From: Geothrix edaphica
GTDB taxonomy: Bacteria > Acidobacteriota > Holophagae > Holophagales > Holophagaceae
NCBI RefSeq assembly: GCF_030268045.1
Contig: NZ_BSDC01000001.1
Location: 124,001 to 188,000 of the forward strand
Reading direction: 5' to 3'
Length of the DNA stretch: 64,000 nucleotides
Position 1 is the first letter of the stretch. Every line of letters begins with the position of its first letter. The notes beneath the pieces are model-generated. The model was not told where the DNA came from. It did not search any database and was given only the letters and a program-made list of their open reading frames with translations. Positions 34,529-51,048 of this stretch are shown one piece after another. A program made the position numbers and the translations under genes.

Positions 34529-34560
34529 TTCGATGATTGCGTCAGCTCGACACAGCTCGA

Positions 34561-34668
34561 CATCTCTCCGCGCTTGATTGCTCAATCGCGGCAGGAATTG
34601 GCACCTTGCTTTCGCAGGTTGCCAAGGTTTCACAGGGCCCGTCCCTCCACCTTTCTGGATAACTCGCT
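34561..34668 (-). promoter_or_regulatory. SAM-I (S-box) riboswitch upstream of metY-metA-lysC
   Basis: The minus-strand sequence has the S-box core in order: TTATCCAGAAAGG, TGGAGGGA, GGCCCTGTGAAACC, TTGGCAACC, AAGGTGCCAATTCC and a P4 hairpin (CCGCG...CGCGG). The aptamer ends about 60 nt before the terminator at 34503-34528. High SAM should stabilise the aptamer and allow termination before metY. Confidence 0.95.
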
Positions 34669-43542: not shown

Positions 43543-43607
43543 GGATGCGCCTGGGGGCGACAGTCCGATAACGGTATCCAGGGGGTCTCGGGTCAGTCTG
43601 AGTCGTT

Positions 43608-43708
43608 CGGTATCTTCCCCCCGGACACGCCGGGGGCAGGAGTTGGCACCTTGCTGTCGCAGGTTGCCAAGGTTTCACAGGGCCTTTCCCTCCACCTTTC
43701 TGGATAGC
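43608..43708 (-). promoter_or_regulatory. SAM-I (S-box) riboswitch upstream of metF-fdx-metH
   Basis: The minus-strand core CTATCCAGAAAGG, TGGAGGGA, GGCCCTGTGAAACC, TTGGCAACC, AAGGTGCCAACTCC plus a strong P4 hairpin (CCCCCGG...CCGGGGG) is nearly identical to the metY copy. No T-tailed terminator is visible before metF. Instead a downstream CTGGATA (43580-43574) can pair with TATCCAG of P1, and CCCCCTGG can compete with P4. Control may therefore be translational or use an unusual expression platform. Confidence 0.93.
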
Positions 43709-43713
43709 GCTAT

Positions 43714-44033: not shown

Positions 44034-45467
44034 TCAAGCCTGGGGCGGTTCCTCCGGAGCCGGGTGCGTGGTGAGGCCCTGGCGCTTCATATGGCCCCAG
44101 GTGTTCTTGCCGCGGATCCAGTCGTAGGTGCCCTTCAGGCGCCACCAGACCGTGAGCTGCCGGTAGCCGAAGTTCTCCGCCACGGCCCCCACGAGCAGCA
44201 GGACCAGGGCCTTGAGGCCCTGGTAGCGGTGGCCGCTGATCTCCTGCAGCACCACGGCCACCACGGAGTTCAGCACGCCGAGCAGCAGGGCGACGTAGAA
44301 GAACAGGAGGGCGAAGGTGCCGCCGACGGAGCCGGTCAGGATGGCTACCGCGAACAGCAGGTACCCGCTGACCTCGATGATGGGCGCCAGGGCCTCGAAG
44401 AAGATGAAGTAGGGCATGGAGAAGAGCCCGATGCGGCCGTACTTGGGGTTGAAGCACATGTGGCGGTGCCGCCAGAGGGTCTCCAGGAGGCCCCGCTGCC
44501 AGCGGTTCCTCTGGCGGCCGAGGCCGCGGAAATCCTCGGGCACCTCGGTCCAGCACACGGGGTCGGGCACCAGGGTGATGTGATGGGGGCGCTTCTCCTC
44601 GCGCAGGCAGCGGTGCAGGCGCACGACGAGCTCGAAGTCCTCGCCGATGGTGGAGGTCTCGAAGCCTCCCGCCGTCACGACCAGGTCCTTGCGGAAGACG
44701 CCGAAGGCGCCGCTGACGATGAACATGCTGTCCAGGGAGGCGAGGCCCACGCGGGTGAAGAGGAAGGCCCGCAGGTATTCCACGATCTGGAAGCGGGCCA
44801 GCCAGGAGTCGGGCAGGAAGATGCCACGGATGCCCATGGGCGTGACCTTGCAGCCGTTCAGGGGGCGGACCACGCCACCGGAGGCCACCATGTCCGGCCG
44901 GTCCATGAAGGGCCGGGCGATGCGCAGGAGCGCGTCGTTCTCCAGGAGGCTGTCCCCGTCCATGCAGCAGACCAGCGGGTAGCGGGCGAGGTTGATGCCG
45001 CAGTTCAGGGCGTCGGCCTTCCCACCGTTGGCCTTGTCCACCACCACCAGGTTGGGCACGTAGGCGCTTTCGTAGATGCCGCGGACCTCCCTGGTGGGCA
45101 GGAGCTGGCGCAGGACCCGCTGGCTGGGCTGGAGCTTGAAGGCCTTGACCAGGCGCTCCAGGGTGGCGTCCGTGCTGCCGTCGCTCACCACCACGACCTG
45201 GAACTCGGGATAGCGGAGGCTGATGAGGCTGTTGATGCTCGCCACGACCCCGGCCTCTTCGTTGTAGACGGGGCAGATCAGGGTGATGGGCTTGTAGTGG
45301 CTGGTCTCGAAGGCCGTGTCCAGGCGGTCAATCCCGACGGCATCCAGGTAGTTCCGGATGGAGAAGAAGGCGCGGAGGATCAGGGCCAGGTGCGTCAGGT
45401 TGGTGGCCAGGAAGTAGCTGAGGATGCTCCACTCGACGGTGGCGGTGAGGAAGGCCCGCAAGGTCAC
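44034..45467 (-). CDS. Processive family-2 glycosyltransferase (polysaccharide synthase), membrane
   Basis: A 477-residue protein. One N-terminal transmembrane region spans about residues 12-36. The GT2 catalytic domain has SDGS (Asp96), MDGDS (Asp170/172), GED (276-277) and QRNRW (319-323), the D,D,D,QxxRW set of processive synthases such as PgaC, BcsA and hyaluronan synthase. Three or four C-terminal transmembrane helices (about 345-430) follow. There is no PilZ domain. It would polymerise and translocate a beta-linked polysaccharide. The start overlaps the HEAT gene stop (ATGA), the end of a five-gene operon. Confidence 0.93.
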   Translation of the reverse strand: MTLRAFLTATVEWSILSYFLATNLTHLALILRAFFSIRNYLDAVGIDRLDTAFETSHYKPITLICPVYNEEAGVVASINSLISLRYPEFQVVVVSDGSTDATLERLVKAFKLQPSQRVLRQLLPTREVRGIYESAYVPNLVVVDKANGGKADALNCGINLARYPLVCCMDGDSLLENDALLRIARPFMDRPDMVASGGVVRPLNGCKVTPMGIRGIFLPDSWLARFQIVEYLRAFLFTRVGLASLDSMFIVSGAFGVFRKDLVVTAGGFETSTIGEDFELVVRLHRCLREEKRPHHITLVPDPVCWTEVPEDFRGLGRQRNRWQRGLLETLWRHRHMCFNPKYGRIGLFSMPYFIFFEALAPIIEVSGYLLFAVAILTGSVGGTFALLFFYVALLLGVLNSVVAVVLQEISGHRYQGLKALVLLLVGAVAENFGYRQLTVWWRLKGTYDWIRGKNTWGHMKRQGLTTHPAPEEPPQA

Positions 45468-46537
45468 ATGTGCCCCCGTTCATCCGCCCACTCGAGCCGC
45501 TCCCGGGCGATGTCGCGGGCGAAGCGGTCGGCGGCGGGATCGTTCGCCAGCCAGGTCAGGGCCGAGACGCCAGAGTGGCCGAGGTCCACGAGGCTCTGGG
45601 CGGCGTTCCGGCGCACTTCGTACACGGGATCGGCCATCAGGGGCAGCAGGTCGGGAACGGCGGAGGGGCCCCCCAGCACGCCCAGGGCCCGGGCGACCTG
45701 GGTCCGGATCTCCCAGGCGGGGCTAGAGGCGAAGCTGCGCACCTTCGGGTACACCGCCGGATCCGCGAGGATGATGAGGGCCTTGAGCACCGAGGCGCGC
45801 AGGTCCACGTTCGGAACCTCCAGCAGCCACAGCAGGCGCGGCAGGGATTCCCGGTGCCGGTGGGAGCCCGCCAGGAGGGCGTAGAGGATCCAGGGCTCGG
45901 GGTTCTGGTTCGGGGACTCCAGGTTCTCCTTCATCCAGGGCAGCAGGGTGGGGCCGAAGCCTTCGAGCACCCGGAGCAGCCGCTCCCGCTGGTAGAGCTC
46001 CTCGCGCATGACCCAGGCCAGCACGGGCTCGGCGTACTTCAGGCTCCGGCTGCGGGTCAGGGTCAGAGCCGCCGTGTGGGCGACGAAGGGGACGGGATCA
46101 TCGAGGAGGGGCAGCACCTGATCGAGGTAGCCCTCCATGCGGACGCCGGGCTTCCAGCGCCAGGGCCGCTCCGTCACGGGTGGCGGCGCGTGCTCCGCCG
46201 GCTCGTCCAGGCGGAAGACGGCGATCTCCTTCGCCGCCTGGGCCCGGATCTTGGGGTCGCGGTCCTGCAGGCGCCCGGGCAGGGAGGTGTGGATGCCCAT
46301 GCTCAGGTAGAGCTCCCGCAGCAGCTCGGATTCCTGTCCCGCGATCGTGGACTGGTAGCGCGCAAGGAAATCCCGGAACAGCCACCGGTCGGACCAGGCG
46401 ACCTGCCCGAAGCCGTCGCGCTCATAGCCCCTCTTGAAGAGGTAGTCCGTGAGCTGGCCCTCCCAGGCCTGGTAACGGGCGATGCGATACCGGTTCCGCC
46501 GGTCCTTGAGGTACTGCATGATGACGCCCACGACCAC
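45464..46537 (-). CDS. HEAT-repeat protein, probably membrane-anchored
   Basis: At least 357 residues. The bulk (about 90-350) consists of HEAT/PBS-lyase-type helical repeats (DRDPKIRAQAAKEIAVF, NVDLRASVLKALIILAD, EIRTQVARALGVLGG, YEVRRNAAQSLVDLG). The GTG start at 46537 cuts through a hydrophobic segment. The same frame is open back to 46627, just after the receiver gene's stop, and would add a full transmembrane helix (LGLVSLVAALVVVGVIMQYL) followed by the basic KDRRNRYR. The true start is thus probably further upstream at a non-ATG codon (CTG or ATC). It is likely a scaffold for the GT2 synthase, whose gene it overlaps. Confidence 0.82.
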   Translation of the reverse strand: MVVGVIMQYLKDRRNRYRIARYQAWEGQLTDYLFKRGYERDGFGQVAWSDRWLFRDFLARYQSTIAGQESELLRELYLSMGIHTSLPGRLQDRDPKIRAQAAKEIAVFRLDEPAEHAPPPVTERPWRWKPGVRMEGYLDQVLPLLDDPVPFVAHTAALTLTRSRSLKYAEPVLAWVMREELYQRERLLRVLEGFGPTLLPWMKENLESPNQNPEPWILYALLAGSHRHRESLPRLLWLLEVPNVDLRASVLKALIILADPAVYPKVRSFASSPAWEIRTQVARALGVLGGPSAVPDLLPLMADPVYEVRRNAAQSLVDLGHSGVSALTWLANDPAADRFARDIARERLEWADERGHM

Positions 46538-46627
46538 CAGGGCTGCGACCAGACTGACCAGACCGAGGGTCGCCCAGTGGAGGATCGGCAGCAGCGTGCT
46601 GTGGGGCAGGTGGATGGGGAAGATAGA

Positions 46628-47032
46628 TCACCCCGCGCGGTGGGATCGTTCGAAGAGCCGCCACAGCCGCTCCACCATCACCTGGACGGAGATCGGCTTG
46701 GCCATGTAGTCGTCCGCGCCGGCGGCGAGGCATCGCACCATGTCCTGCTCGCTGTGGTTGCTGGAGAGGAGCAGGATGGGGATGCGGCCCTTCGGGGGTG
46801 GGAGGTCCCGGACTTCCTGGACCAGACGGAAGCCGTTCATGGCCGGCATCATCAGGTCGGTGGAGATCAGATCGACCTTCTCCCGCTGGAGAACATCGAG
46901 GGCCTCCATGCCATTTCCGGCTACGAGGACCTTCAGCCCCTCCATCTCCAGGCGGACCTGGATGATCTTGGCAGTCGCAGGGTCGTCTTCGACCACCAGG
47001 ACTGTCGTCTGTTCCGGCCAATGTCGGGTCAT
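46628..47032 (-). CDS. Stand-alone response regulator receiver domain
   Basis: A 134-residue CheY-like protein with no output domain. The acidic pocket is EDD at residues 15-17, the phosphoacceptor Asp59 is in STDLMMP, Ser90/91 is the switch residue and Lys112 is in AKPIS. No histidine kinase is adjacent. It sits between the TPR/barrel and HEAT genes of the polysaccharide operon, so it probably acts by protein contact on the synthase complex. A TAGACT (47045-47040, minus strand) lies 7 nt before the ATG and no ribosome binding site is seen. Confidence 0.93.
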   Translation of the reverse strand: MTRHWPEQTTVLVVEDDPATAKIIQVRLEMEGLKVLVAGNGMEALDVLQREKVDLISTDLMMPAMNGFRLVQEVRDLPPPKGRIPILLLSSNHSEQDMVRCLAAGADDYMAKPISVQVMVERLWRLFERSHRAG

Positions 47033-47039
47033 CGGAAAA

Positions 47040-47045
47040 AGTCTA
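47040..47045 (-). promoter_or_regulatory. Possible internal leaderless -10 element before the receiver gene
   Basis: Minus-strand TAGACT ends 7 nt before the ATG of the receiver gene, which lacks a Shine-Dalgarno sequence. It would allow separate transcription of the receiver-HEAT-GT2 half of the operon. Confidence 0.3.
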
Positions 47046-47053
47046 TCGCATTT

Positions 47054-48751
47054 CTACCAAATCCAGCGATTTCCACGGATCCGGATCCCGAAGCGGAGGG
47101 TGTGATCCCGATAGCTGCTGGGATCGAGGGGATCCGAGATGGGAAGTCCCGCCACGCTCTGGTCCCAGGAGGCGAAGAGGGAGGCGGCCGAGCCTCCGGG
47201 CGTCCAGGTCGCGGCCACGGTGTACCCCCAGGTGAACTGGCTGGAGGCCTGGTTCACCGTCTGCCTCCCGCCCCAGGCGTCGAGGGCGAGTTCCCAGCGC
47301 TCCTCCCGCCTCGCCGAGGCGCCGGCGGTGGCGCCGTAGTACCGGTACCGCTCGGGATTGAAGAACCCGAGCCGGAGGCTCCGGTCCTGGTCGATGAGGC
47401 GGCTCGACAGCCCCGCGCGCCACTCCCCCCCCTCGACGGGGAACCGTTGTCCAGCCTCGAGGCGGAGGCCCGTCCGCGCGGCGCCGGCGGAGAGGAAGGC
47501 GCGGTCCAGGGACAGGCCCACGTGGTCGAGGGTCTGGTTGAAGACCCAGTTCCCCCCCAGGGTCCAGGTCCGGGTGTAGGTGCGGAGGTCCACGGCCAGG
47601 GGCGTGGCCAGGTTCGGCGCGGCGCTGTGCGACAGGACCAGGGTCAGGCCCGGGGCGGCGCGCAGTCCCAGGGAGAGGTTGTGGAAGCTGGCCGGCTCGC
47701 CGCCCACGTCATCCACCCGGCCCACCTGGGCCGAGGCCCGGAGGCGGGAGCCCAGGGGATGGCTGATCCCCAGTGACCATTCCCGGGGTTTCCGCTCGGT
47801 CCCTCCACTCTGGCTGAGCAGATCGAAGGCGCCGCCCAGCCGCAGGCTCCCGTCGAAGAACGGGACTGCCGCATCCACCCGCTGGGCCTGGGCGCGCAGG
47901 CCCTCGTTGGAGTCCGTGCGGATCTGGGAGAGCTCGATCCAGGGCCCCTGGGCATCCACGAGGCCGCGCAGCCGGGACTGGGCGTCCTCGCGGATGTCCG
48001 GGTTGCCCAGCTGCGCTTCGGTCCGGGTCCGGGCCTGGCGAAGGCGGCCCATGCGCTGGTCGATCTGGGCGCGCAGGAGCTCGGCCTCGGGGGTCCTGGC
48101 GTCTTCGGGGCCGAGGCCGGCCAGGCGCTGGTCCGCCGCCTCGGGATCGCCCGCCCAGAGATCGAGCTGGGCGAGGCCCAGCCTCGCCTCCCGGTCCCCC
48201 GGACTCTGGAGGAGGACCTCCTGGTAGGTGCGCCGGGCCTGGTCGTGCCGTCCGCGCCAGCCCAGCACCCGCCCGCGGTTGATGAGGAAGTCCCGGTCCG
48301 CGGGGTGCGCCTTCAGCCAGGCGCCGGTCAGGGCTAGGCTCCGGTTCAGCTGACCGTCCCAGCTCAGGTAGGTGGCGGTATCCAGGGTGGCCTGGCGGTC
48401 CCCCCGGGCCACGTAGGGCTGGAGGATCCGGATGGCTTCCTTGAACTGCCGGGACCAGGCGGTCACCCGCGCCAGGACGGGCTCGGATTCCGCCGCGAGC
48501 TCCGGATGGACCTCCCGGTGCCGCTTGAGGTCGCGGATGGCCTCGTCGAACCGCTTCATCCAGCTCAGCGTCCGGGCCCGCTCCAGGAGCGCGTCCGGGT
48601 GGTCCTTCCACAGCTCCAGCATGCGCGTGTAGACCGCCACGGCCTCGGGCAGCCGCTTCTGCGAGCGCAGGTCCCGGGCCTGCCTTAGGAGGGTGGCGGC
48701 ATCCGGCGTCGGCGCGGGTTCCTGCAGGGCGGGCGGTGCGGGGTGGATCAT
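47054..48751 (-). CDS. TPR protein with C-terminal outer-membrane beta-barrel (PgaA/YaiO-like)
   Basis: A 565-residue protein. Residues about 15-270 are tetratricopeptide-like repeats (PEAVAVYTRMLELWKDHPDA, DQARRTYQEVLLQSPGD). Residues about 290-565 show the alternating pattern of an outer-membrane barrel ending in a terminal aromatic (RWIW). This combination is typical of exopolysaccharide export porins (PgaA, BcsC, AlgK/E-type). The N-terminus (MIHPAPPALQEP) shows no signal peptide, which is odd for a barrel protein. The start overlaps the glycoside hydrolase stop (ATGA), so the start position is well fixed. Confidence 0.85.
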   Translation of the reverse strand: MIHPAPPALQEPAPTPDAATLLRQARDLRSQKRLPEAVAVYTRMLELWKDHPDALLERARTLSWMKRFDEAIRDLKRHREVHPELAAESEPVLARVTAWSRQFKEAIRILQPYVARGDRQATLDTATYLSWDGQLNRSLALTGAWLKAHPADRDFLINRGRVLGWRGRHDQARRTYQEVLLQSPGDREARLGLAQLDLWAGDPEAADQRLAGLGPEDARTPEAELLRAQIDQRMGRLRQARTRTEAQLGNPDIREDAQSRLRGLVDAQGPWIELSQIRTDSNEGLRAQAQRVDAAVPFFDGSLRLGGAFDLLSQSGGTERKPREWSLGISHPLGSRLRASAQVGRVDDVGGEPASFHNLSLGLRAAPGLTLVLSHSAAPNLATPLAVDLRTYTRTWTLGGNWVFNQTLDHVGLSLDRAFLSAGAARTGLRLEAGQRFPVEGGEWRAGLSSRLIDQDRSLRLGFFNPERYRYYGATAGASARREERWELALDAWGGRQTVNQASSQFTWGYTVAATWTPGGSAASLFASWDQSVAGLPISDPLDPSSYRDHTLRFGIRIRGNRWIW

Positions 48752-51048
48752 CGGGGCATCCTCGGTTCGTCGGGGGTGTCGGCCAGGGCCTTCTGGTAGA
48801 TCGTGTAGGACTGCTTGCGGAAGCGGTGGAAGGTCGGCTGGGCCCAGGTGGCCCAGCTGAAGAGCGGCGGCAGGGGAATGCGCCCCCGGCTGGTGGCGGG
48901 CAGGGTCAGGCGGACGGTGCTCTTTCCCTCCCCCAGCGGTTTGTCGGCATCCAGGACCGCCAGCACGAATCTGAACCCCGGAGTGATGGTCGTCGCCAGG
49001 GGGCTGGGGGGCTTCGCCTCCGGATCGTCGAGGACTGAGCGGCTGCTGGGGTCCGTGACATGCAGCAGCGCCCAGGGGATCCGGGCCTCGAGGAAGCCCC
49101 GGCCATCCGGGCTCCGGCCCACCTGCCACTCGGCCCGGGAATCGAAGGCCGGGTCCGCGCGGTCCTGGGTGCCCTGGCGGAGCCAGCCGATCTCGGTGCT
49201 GTGGCCCGGGAACCGCGCGCCATCGCGGCCCATCCGCGGATGGTTGCTCTTCGCGGTGGCCAGGACGAAGCGGCCCTCGTCGTTGGCGAGGCTCCGGTAG
49301 CGCTGCTGGGGCATGGGCCGGTACTCGGGAACGGCGTAGGGTGCGTCGACGAACACGCCGGTGCGGCCCGGGCCCTGGAACAGGACCGCGAACTCCAGTC
49401 CCGCCTCGCTGCGGAGGTCCGGGGTCCAGGGCAGCCGGTGGTCGCCCCGGTCGGGGTCCAGGGTGTCGATGCCCACCAGGAAGGCCTGCTTCGAGAAGTC
49501 CACGGGGGCCGGAAGGAACAGGGCCAGGTGGAGCCAGCCCTCGTCCGCCACCACCTTCAAAGTGAGGCCGTCGCCTTCCAGGTAGACGGGAACCCGGGCC
49601 CAGTCCTCGGCCTTGCCGTCGATGAGGACGGTGGGCCCTTTCGTGCCTGGACGGTAGGCGATGAGCCCGTAGTTCTCCTCCGCATCCAGGACGTTGTACC
49701 AGAGGGGCTTCCGATCGGAAGGAAGTTCAAAGGGCAGGGTCAGCCAGTTCTTCTTGAACCATTCGTCGATCCAGGCGAACAGCACGCCCCCTGCGCAGCC
49801 CGCCTCGTAGATGTTGCGCTGGAGCCGGGCATCCTGCTCGCCCTGCTCCCGTTCGCTCTGGCCGCCGTGGGTCAGGCCCTGGGCCTGCCAGTGGGCGACC
49901 ACACGGGAAGAAGGAACCCCGAACTCCGCGATGAGCACGGGGTGGCGGGCATGGTGCTTCACCAGGTCGGCGAGGTACCCGGCATAGTGGCTGGGCCCCA
50001 GGTGGTCCCTGGCCTGGGCGTAGCCGGGATCCAGGTTCATGAAGTCTGGATAGTACGGATAGGCGTGGTAGCTGGCGAACAGGCCCGCCAGGAGCTCGGG
50101 CGTCCCGGCGAACTTCTCCATATCCAGGCCGACCGCATCCTCATCCTCGGGTTCGGCGTTGATCTTCTCGACCGGCAGGCCCAGCTTCTGGCGGAGGGCC
50201 CGCTCCTCCTGCTCCGTGGGCTCCGTGATGTGGAAGAGGGGGTCCAGGGTGGGCCAGTTGGTGAAGGCGATGGGCCGCTGGGCGTGGAACCGGTCCCACT
50301 CGAGGGCCAGGAAGCGGTCCATGCTCCGGGCCAGGAACTGTTCCATGGCATGGCCGCCCCGCAGGGTGACGAAGCGGCCGGACCAGTCCGAATCTCCCGG
50401 ATGCCGGCGGTTGAAGGCCACCACGCTGGAGGATTCCCACTCGCGGCCCAGGATGACGGCCAGGGTCCAGGGGCTGACATCCGCTCCGTAGACGCCATCG
50501 GCATGTCCCGGGCGCACGGGGATGCGGGCCCGGCCGTGGAGCACCTCGGCCACCTCCTGCATCTCCCGGTGCCACGCGGCGAGCCAGCCCGGGTCCAGGA
50601 AATCGTGGCGGGGGGGCAGCTCGGTCCAGACGCCGTGGATGAGCCATAGAGGTTTCCGGGCGGCGAGGTTGTAGGCGTGCAGGGCCTCGTAGAACGCGGG
50701 CGGGTGGATGGTGTAGACGCGGACGGTGTTGATGCCCGCTTCGGCCATCTCCCGCAGCCAGCCGTCGTAGGTGGCCCGGTCGGGGAACTCGCTGGGATAC
50801 TTGCCGGGCAGGGCCGCGCCGAGGTTCATGCCCTTGACGTAGAAGGGCCGCCAGCCACCATGGCCATCGGCCACTTCCAGCCGCCGCTCATGGGCCCGGG
50901 CCGGGATCTGCGGCTGGGAGGGCCGGGGGGCGGGGGCTGTCTTCCGTGGCGGCAGGGCCCGCCTGGCCATGGCAGCGGTCCCCGGCCCTGGTTGACCAAG
51001 GGAAAAAACGAGACTCGCGCACAGCAGAACCGGTAATGGCAGGATCAT
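48748..51048 (-). CDS. Secreted glycoside hydrolase-like protein with C-terminal beta-sandwich domain
   Basis: A 766-residue protein with a signal peptide (LPVLLCASLVFSLG). A TIM-barrel glycosidase-like domain covers about residues 65-470: YVKGMNLGAALPGKYP, INTVRVYTIHPP, candidate acid/base Glu203 or Glu205 in GREWES, and candidate nucleophile Glu375 in LIAEFG. A CBM9/DOMON-like domain follows (VLIDGKAEDW, WLHLALFL, LEARIPWALL). It resembles clan GH-A enzymes without a family I can name. GAAGG is 5 nt before ATG 51048. First in the polysaccharide operon, it could trim or cleave the polymer, as PgaB, BcsZ or PelA do. Confidence 0.82.
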   Translation of the reverse strand: MILPLPVLLCASLVFSLGQPGPGTAAMARRALPPRKTAPAPRPSQPQIPARAHERRLEVADGHGGWRPFYVKGMNLGAALPGKYPSEFPDRATYDGWLREMAEAGINTVRVYTIHPPAFYEALHAYNLAARKPLWLIHGVWTELPPRHDFLDPGWLAAWHREMQEVAEVLHGRARIPVRPGHADGVYGADVSPWTLAVILGREWESSSVVAFNRRHPGDSDWSGRFVTLRGGHAMEQFLARSMDRFLALEWDRFHAQRPIAFTNWPTLDPLFHITEPTEQEERALRQKLGLPVEKINAEPEDEDAVGLDMEKFAGTPELLAGLFASYHAYPYYPDFMNLDPGYAQARDHLGPSHYAGYLADLVKHHARHPVLIAEFGVPSSRVVAHWQAQGLTHGGQSEREQGEQDARLQRNIYEAGCAGGVLFAWIDEWFKKNWLTLPFELPSDRKPLWYNVLDAEENYGLIAYRPGTKGPTVLIDGKAEDWARVPVYLEGDGLTLKVVADEGWLHLALFLPAPVDFSKQAFLVGIDTLDPDRGDHRLPWTPDLRSEAGLEFAVLFQGPGRTGVFVDAPYAVPEYRPMPQQRYRSLANDEGRFVLATAKSNHPRMGRDGARFPGHSTEIGWLRQGTQDRADPAFDSRAEWQVGRSPDGRGFLEARIPWALLHVTDPSSRSVLDDPEAKPPSPLATTITPGFRFVLAVLDADKPLGEGKSTVRLTLPATSRGRIPLPPLFSWATWAQPTFHRFRKQSYTIYQKALADTPDEPRMPR

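Follow-up and report, generated by a model that had tools for sequence, protein, structure and literature searches.

We analysed a 64,000-nucleotide stretch of DNA (the window; positions 124001-188000 of contig 1 in a Geothrix host genome of 3.16 Mb) and found that five consecutive open reading frames (ORFs) on its minus strand, at 44034-51048, probably encode a synthase-dependent polysaccharide machine. Its core would consist of a receiver protein, a HEAT-repeat protein and a membrane glycosyltransferase of family 2 (GT2). This assignment, which includes the working proposed below, builds on observed gene conservation and linkage, on predicted folds, on motif conservation and on the absence of the exporter gene from Bacillota and archaeal loci. 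The five genes, in the order of transcription, are as follows.

48748-51048, minus strand: GH, a glycoside hydrolase with a signal peptide recognised by eye; predicted TIM barrel plus C-terminal β domain, GH157-like in the model
47054-48751, minus strand: TPR/barrel, a tetratricopeptide repeat (TPR) domain plus a predicted 16-stranded barrel; candidate polysaccharide export porin
46628-47032, minus strand: receiver, stand-alone and CheY-like (Pfam Response_reg, 1.3e-27)
45464-46624 (start approximate), minus strand: HEAT, with an N-terminal transmembrane segment (Pfam HEAT_2, 9.5e-19; HEAT, 7.9e-15)
44034-45467, minus strand: GT2, a putative membrane polysaccharide synthase without PilZ (Pfam Glycos_transf_2, 8.8e-20)

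These ORFs agree with an earlier reading of the same DNA (the original prediction), which had listed the same five genes on one strand. Pfam identified four of them, also assigning TPR to the TPR/barrel protein and Glyco_tranf_2_3 to GT2, and GH was identified by its structural model. Neither Pfam nor NCBIfam gave a match, in any of the five proteins, to the parts that had been reported as missing (PilZ, BcsB, PgaD and a deacetylase). Two ATGA overlaps had been described; the GH/TPR junction is one, and the HEAT/GT2 junction turned out to be GTGA, with GTG as the GT2 start codon. The ratio of nonsynonymous to synonymous substitution rates (dN/dS) was 0.08-0.29 for each of the five genes when the window was compared with the four nearest Geothrix genomes (L040-L043), indicating that the genes are real and maintained. 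It was higher against L044 and L045, with a maximum of 0.87 for the TPR gene.

Conservation and linkage of the gene set

Loci were gathered by GT2 alone, which gave 113 non-duplicate loci after removal of L109 and L115, which duplicate L041 and L035. By the labels of the sequence records, they span Acidobacteriota, Bacillota, Bacteroidota, Pseudomonadota, about ten more phylum labels and one haloarchaeon (one of three listed haloarchaeal loci was examined). Synteny was scored with our own ORF calls, distance rules and hidden Markov models (HMMs) for which these loci had also served as training set; a TPR or GH gene counted wherever it lay in the flanks, irrespective of strand. A HEAT hit was present in all 110 loci having at least 500 bases upstream of GT2, and in 106 of the 110 it lay directly upstream of GT2 on the same strand. 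In L093, one of the remaining four, the HEAT gene is adjacent by eye, and the other three are rearranged Nitrospirota loci. Of 100 loci testable for the receiver, 84 have its gene near GT2 and on the same strand; in two of the three Nitrospirota loci it adjoins HEAT instead. Because the HMMs had been trained on the same loci, a separate control was run on 32 GT2 loci with flanks of about 1.5 kb: 30 from Acidobacteriota, retrieved with E. coli PgaC as query, and two from the own genome that hold relatives of GT2. HEAT was hit in one of these loci, the receiver also in one, TPR in three and GH in none. Synteny had been set beforehand as the refutation test of the original prediction, and the system withstood it, with HEAT in 110/110 GT2 loci versus 1/32 controls. 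Independent record annotation placed a "HEAT repeat" protein beside the glycosyltransferase in five of six annotated plasmid loci, the one in Emticicia being annotated "hypothetical"; a Paenibacillus record carries no annotation at this place. The almost one-to-one association of the HEAT and GT2 genes, seen in different phyla and also in an archaeon, points to HEAT as the partner of the synthase.

Export and hydrolase genes were linked less constantly, being hit in 53 (TPR/barrel) and 33 (GH) of the 84 loci with full flanks. TPR/barrel was found in 0/22 Bacillota, 0/1 archaeal and 53/61 other loci of this group; an exporter in the outer membrane would be expected to be missing from the first two. 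GH was present in 20/22 Bacillota, 12/25 Acidobacteriota and 1/1 Deinococcota loci with full flanks, and overall it was found only in Bacillota, Acidobacteriota, one Deinococcus and one deltaproteobacterial locus. The original proposal of a defined system is supported in that the set is widely conserved and its core, HEAT-GT2 usually joined by the receiver, stays together; the full five-gene layout is one of several. In L044 (4130-8385) and L045 (9026-13281), GH and TPR form a separate pair that is inverted relative to receiver-HEAT-GT2, and both genes are far more diverged from the window than is GT2 (dN 0.73 for TPR, about 0.10 for GT2). This inversion and divergence suggest that the genes for export and trimming may be exchanged as modules.

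GT2 was matched in 33 of 149 sampled Acidobacteriota genomes (E<=1e-60); the own genome and 28 others of these 33 were used, with G099 (3.9 kb contig), G038, G141 and G121 left out. Counting GT2 alone at E<=1e-140, with the centre genome included, we found it in 40/148 genomes of Daejeonella's phylum, 13/149 of Paenibacillus' phylum and 8/150 of Stutzerimonas' phylum. The genome contig scan kept the best 80 of 533 relatives, which fall under many phylum labels. Plasmid records with GT2 came from haloarchaea, Deinococcus, Mesorhizobium, Erythrobacter, Emticicia, Paenibacillus, Bacteroides and others. Of ten genomes of the genus in the Acidobacteriota sample (own included), seven carry GT2. One that has no HEAT-linked GT2, G040, encodes homologues of pgaA, pgaB and pgaC in that order (L181 5155-10537), its PgaC being 50% identical to that of E. 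coli, and no pgaD match was found in L181 at E<=1e-5; this single case hints at an equivalent role. No PgaC match of comparable score was obtained in G065 and G076, two genomes of the genus without GT2.

Several loci have further genes nearby. Genes of the sulfatase/lipoteichoic acid (LTA)-synthase family lie near two Bacteroidota loci and a Bdellovibrio locus (L128 9396-11441, L075 3444-5810, L037 9149-11116), and a polysaccharide-deacetylase gene lies near the alphaproteobacterial L093 (2870-4900); both kinds are possible polymer modifiers. L122, from a metagenome-assembled genome contig labelled Klebsiella pneumoniae, has the order receiver-TPR-HEAT-GT2, and its species label is doubtful.

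Predicted folds and motifs of the five proteins

The residues of the DGS-D, D-x-D, ED and QR-x-RW motifs are invariant in GT2 (16-row alignment). These are processive-type motifs of a membrane GT2, as in synthase-dependent exopolysaccharide systems generally, and from these motifs GT2 is predicted to be processive, as labelled in the original prediction. The top NCBIfam model for GT2 was PgaC_IcaA, at 134.5 bits versus a cut-off of 422.3. In a maximum-likelihood tree of 55 family members (the window and 54 of the 113 loci) and 13 other GT2s, made by a quick method and containing several long reference branches, the family was set apart by a branch whose SH-aLRT support was 99. E. coli PgaC, BcsA and YaiP fell outside, as did the Geothrix-genus PgaC.

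The AlphaFold model of TPR/barrel (pLDDT 89; alignment of 17 of 22 rows, with L035, L100, L110, L131 and L046 left out) has about 8 TPR-like helical hairpins and 16 strands, as expected for the TPR plus β-barrel protein originally described. The top fold matches of the barrel were BcsC (6tzk, Z 27.2), PelB (9h80, Z 26.8) and 4y25 (Z 26.6; root-mean-square deviation (rmsd) 2.5 Å over 277 residues), a "polysaccharide outer membrane secretin" that we take to be PgaA. BcsC and PelB structures together with 4y25 made up the five best VIA-align rows (Z 26.6-27.2); two long BcsC rows had an rmsd of 15-18 Å and the remaining top rows 2.5-3.3 Å. The TPR plus 16-strand architecture of an export porin, a feature of the Pga system for poly-N-acetylglucosamine (PNAG), is present in the model. 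TIGR04390 (YaiO) was not among the NCBIfam hits of the window porin at E<=0.1, and it matched 8 of 10 porins of relatives checked. At the porin start, MIHPAPPALQEP (window 48690-48751), no signal peptide was recognisable by eye, and the same was seen in L040-L043; L044 and L045 have a short hydrophobic start, and several other relatives have a normal one. A programmed frameshift joining GH and the porin was set aside, as no good slippery site was found by eye at the conserved CCCCGATGA.

GH had no family match in Pfam or NCBIfam, and a sequence search against PDB chains gave no match. Its AlphaFold model (pLDDT 87; 29 of 32 rows first aligned) matches TIM-barrel glycoside hydrolases and, together with the signal peptide seen by eye, bears out the secreted TIM-barrel hydrolase of the original prediction. 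The best PDB fold match was the GH157 enzyme LaGH157 (Z 32.7, rmsd 2.3 Å, 314 residues, 15% identity); the other two LaGH157 entries scored Z 29.5 and 29.0, and the best GH2 row Z 28.0. The candidate catalytic residues are E375 (IAEFG), invariant, and E203 (GREWE), nearly invariant in the 29-row alignment. Some GH proteins, from Deinococcus and from at least one further Acidobacteriota genome, carry an N-terminal TPR domain (L034 3403-5829, L048 4612-7500).

An N-terminal hydrophobic segment was found in 100 of 110 HEAT relatives. Lysine and arginine are more numerous after than before this segment in 93 of the 100 and the reverse holds in 5, so the HEAT repeats are predicted to be cytoplasmic. 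A relationship to phycobilisome lyases or NblB was rejected, since the four NCBIfam hits of HEAT are far below cut-off. The receiver and HEAT genes share one reading frame (window 46537-46630), and from the receiver stop (TGA) to the HEAT transmembrane segment the window has no in-frame ATG, GTG or TTG; the first ordinary start, GTG at 46537, would cut into that segment. The second codon after the receiver stop is an ATC behind a Shine-Dalgarno-like GGGGTGA and is kept in 7/7 Geothrix loci; L041 and L042 have an additional ATG three codons beyond it. Judged from sequence, HEAT translation probably starts at this ATC (46624), and a ratio of nonsynonymous to synonymous polymorphism (pN/pS) of about 0.7 for the stretch between the receiver stop and the transmembrane segment (10 pairs among five loci) provides modest evidence that it is translated. 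We regard a receiver-HEAT fusion by stop readthrough as less likely, since no ORF in the 115 loci had both hits and an ATC start is simpler.

The Geothrix window receiver has D16/D17, the phospho-acceptor D59, S90 and K112. Across the family (window included), the phospho-acceptor Asp is kept in 72 of 89 receivers, with Glu in 13 and Asn in 4, and the Lys in 86 of 89. In Paenibacillus-type loci (L119, L124, L126, L132-L135, L138, L140, L142, L145), the nearby receiver is encoded downstream of GT2 and carries Glu in place of the phospho-acceptor Asp (e.g. TELNLY), which may be phosphomimetic. Some loci encode the receiver as the end of a larger protein of the type Hpt-REC-GGDEF-REC or REC-REC.

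Four of five flanking genes checked had a family match, and these serve the metabolism of methionine, cysteine and pyruvate: methionine synthase, homocysteine methyltransferase/methylenetetrahydrofolate reductase (MTHFR), a pyruvate dehydrogenase E1-β-like gene and a member of the cysteine/cystathionine synthase family. The fifth gave no match. An Rfam search found no cyclic di-GMP (c-di-GMP) riboswitch; its only matches were two S-adenosylmethionine (SAM) riboswitches on the minus strand (window 43607-43710 and 34557-34665), the former directly upstream of the homocysteine methyltransferase/MTHFR gene and downstream of GT2. A promoter/terminator scan gave results at chance level, and a PHROGs search with three of the five proteins returned a single weak match, GtrB-like, for GT2.

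Proposed working and alternative explanations

In the working that we propose, the membrane GT2 would polymerise an activated sugar and thread the chain across the inner membrane. HEAT, held by one N-terminal helix anchor with its repeats in the cytoplasm, would be the near-constant partner of the synthase, in place of PgaD or BcsB. The receiver would dock on this scaffold, and its phosphorylation state would set synthase activity. Export of the chain would, in most diderms, be the task of the TPR/16-strand barrel, and the secreted GH157-like hydrolase would trim or release the polymer. As the receiver gene often lies just upstream and HEAT is predicted to be cytoplasmic, a receiver-HEAT-GT2 complex, in which the three proteins would be in physical contact, is the simplest reading. 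A switch of synthesis through receiver phosphorylation, in one direction or the other, is plausible. The GH157-like hydrolase points to a β-glucan, possibly β-1,3-linked, as the polymer; PMC7710045 describes, for CcsZ, how the cognate hydrolase of a synthase was used to identify its polymer. A wider proposal is offered tentatively, as something we consider possible: a synthase family in Bacteria and Archaea would be gated directly by two-component phosphorelays through phospho-receiver and HEAT with no need of c-di-GMP, the Paenibacillus-type change from Asp to Glu would lock the receiver in an active-like state, and the product would be a β-1,3-type glucan with GH157-like processing where that enzyme is present.

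A number of observations weigh against the polysaccharide machine with a receiver-HEAT-synthase core. In the window lineage, the porin gene has no signal peptide recognisable by eye, and no TPR/barrel was hit in 8 bacterial loci outside the Bacillota whose flanks are complete. By the distance rule the receiver is not near GT2 in 16/100 loci, and among 115 loci no ORF fuses receiver and HEAT. The phospho-Asp is missing from 17/89 receivers, so phosphorylation cannot be a universal switch. Two of the three LaGH157 entries scored just 1.0-1.5 Z above the best GH2 row, and a GH157-like fold at 15% identity is weak evidence for the glycosidic linkage of the polymer. Further points speak against a simple phospho-switch: GGEEF occurs in 8 receiver-bearing ORFs in 8/113 loci, and elsewhere in the host genome there are 11 matches to GGDEF and 3 to PilZ. 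Together with the loss of phospho-Asp, these points do not fit a simple replacement of c-di-GMP control by receiver and HEAT, as had originally been inferred. They also speak for an explanation that we consider possible but doubtful, in which HEAT is a c-di-GMP-responsive or purely structural co-polymerase, the receiver serves only for docking or localisation, and c-di-GMP controls the output; in four of the eight loci (L098, L099, L116, L127) the GGEEF receiver protein is encoded directly upstream of HEAT, and some of these proteins are of the Hpt-REC-GGDEF-REC type. However, neither HEAT nor GT2 has a PilZ or other c-di-GMP family match in Pfam, three of the GGDEF domains checked (L080, L113, L139) score weakly and have no GG[DE]EF, and most receivers keep the phospho-Asp.

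The five genes could also be a diverged form of the Pga/PNAG (poly-GlcNAc) system, with PgaB and PgaD replaced by other proteins. PgaC_IcaA is indeed the best NCBIfam match of GT2, the barrel matches 4y25 among others, a sibling genome carries Pga homologues instead, and the deacetylase-domain gene lies near L093. Yet the PgaC score is far below the cut-off, the GT2 clade is separate from both E. coli PgaC and the Geothrix-genus PgaC, no PgaD or deacetylase match was found among the five window proteins, and the best folds of the hydrolase are GH157 and GH2 enzymes; we regard a Pga origin as unlikely. Still less probable to us is that GT2 decorates a lipid or cell-wall glycan (lipopolysaccharide or teichoic-type) and that no polymer is secreted. 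The LTA-synthase/sulfatase-family genes near three loci would fit such a role, but the GT2 motifs are of the processive type, a TPR/barrel with a polysaccharide-porin fold is linked in most non-Bacillota bacterial loci, and a secreted hydrolase fits a secreted chain.

Comparison with known polysaccharide systems

No description of a receiver-HEAT-GT2 set was found among the papers listed in searches of open-access full text, subscription literature being outside the search. One listed paper on Myxococcus, PMC9040617, contains both "HEAT repeat domain-containing protein" and "response regulator". The set is not described in the available portions of PMC10434189, PMC12419801, PMC3691769, PMC13194489, PMC3684757, PMC10229575, PMC8461298 and PMC7710045, and the word HEAT is absent from the main text of the review PMC8461298 as far as that text was available. 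Filing the genes as Pga was rejected on the PgaC_IcaA score, the separate clade and the absence of a PgaD or PgaB-deacetylase match, and filing them as Bcs because PilZ on GT2 and BcsB are both missing (Pfam and NCBIfam, five proteins). Given these results and the lack of an open-access description, we place the genes among the synthase-dependent exopolysaccharide systems, as one that is built on a receiver-HEAT core and is of a type that we did not find described.

The E. coli Pga system (pgaABCD) resembles the window set in having a GT2 synthase, a small membrane partner, a TPR plus barrel porin and a periplasmic hydrolase. In contrast, the window set has HEAT and receiver proteins and no PgaD or PgaB-deacetylase match, its GT2 belongs to another clade, and the HEAT/GT2 set also occurs in Bacillota and a haloarchaeon with no porin gene nearby. 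The E. coli Bcs cellulose system (bcsABZC) likewise has a membrane GT2, a hydrolase and a TPR/barrel exporter of the same fold, BcsC being the top match; unlike Bcs, the window has no PilZ on GT2 and no BcsB match, and has a receiver and HEAT. The hydrolases differ as well, the best fold of the window enzyme being GH157 whereas BcsZ is given as GH8 in PMC7710045.

Two further systems were compared by description. The clostridial Ccs system pairs a synthase with a cognate hydrolase in a Gram-positive; in contrast to the window set, CcsZ is a GH5 enzyme, the locus is ccsZABHI, and the part of PMC7710045 at hand mentions no HEAT or receiver protein. Shewanella mxdABCD combines the GT2 MxdB with MxdA, which affects c-di-GMP, and is needed for biofilm, but MxdC is efflux-pump-like, and no HEAT protein or porin is described in the sections of PMC3691769 available. 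The E. coli yaiP-yaiX-yaiO region (with yaiS) shares a GT2 and the YaiO barrel, whose family is that of most relatives' porins checked. It differs in having no annotated HEAT or receiver gene, a deacetylase gene and a broken acyltransferase gene, and a YaiP that falls outside the GT2 clade, and the window porin itself has no TIGR04390 match.

Among well-studied synthase-dependent polymers, cellulose, alginate, Pel and PNAG are standard cases of c-di-GMP control, according to the review PMC8461298. Against this standard, the most constant parts here are a HEAT scaffold and a receiver, kept over many phyla and in a haloarchaeon. If the proposed switch is real, two-component signals would act directly on a polymer synthase. 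Either way, the set probably marks a matrix polysaccharide in culturable genera, among them Mesorhizobium, Paenibacillus, Flavobacterium and Geothrix.

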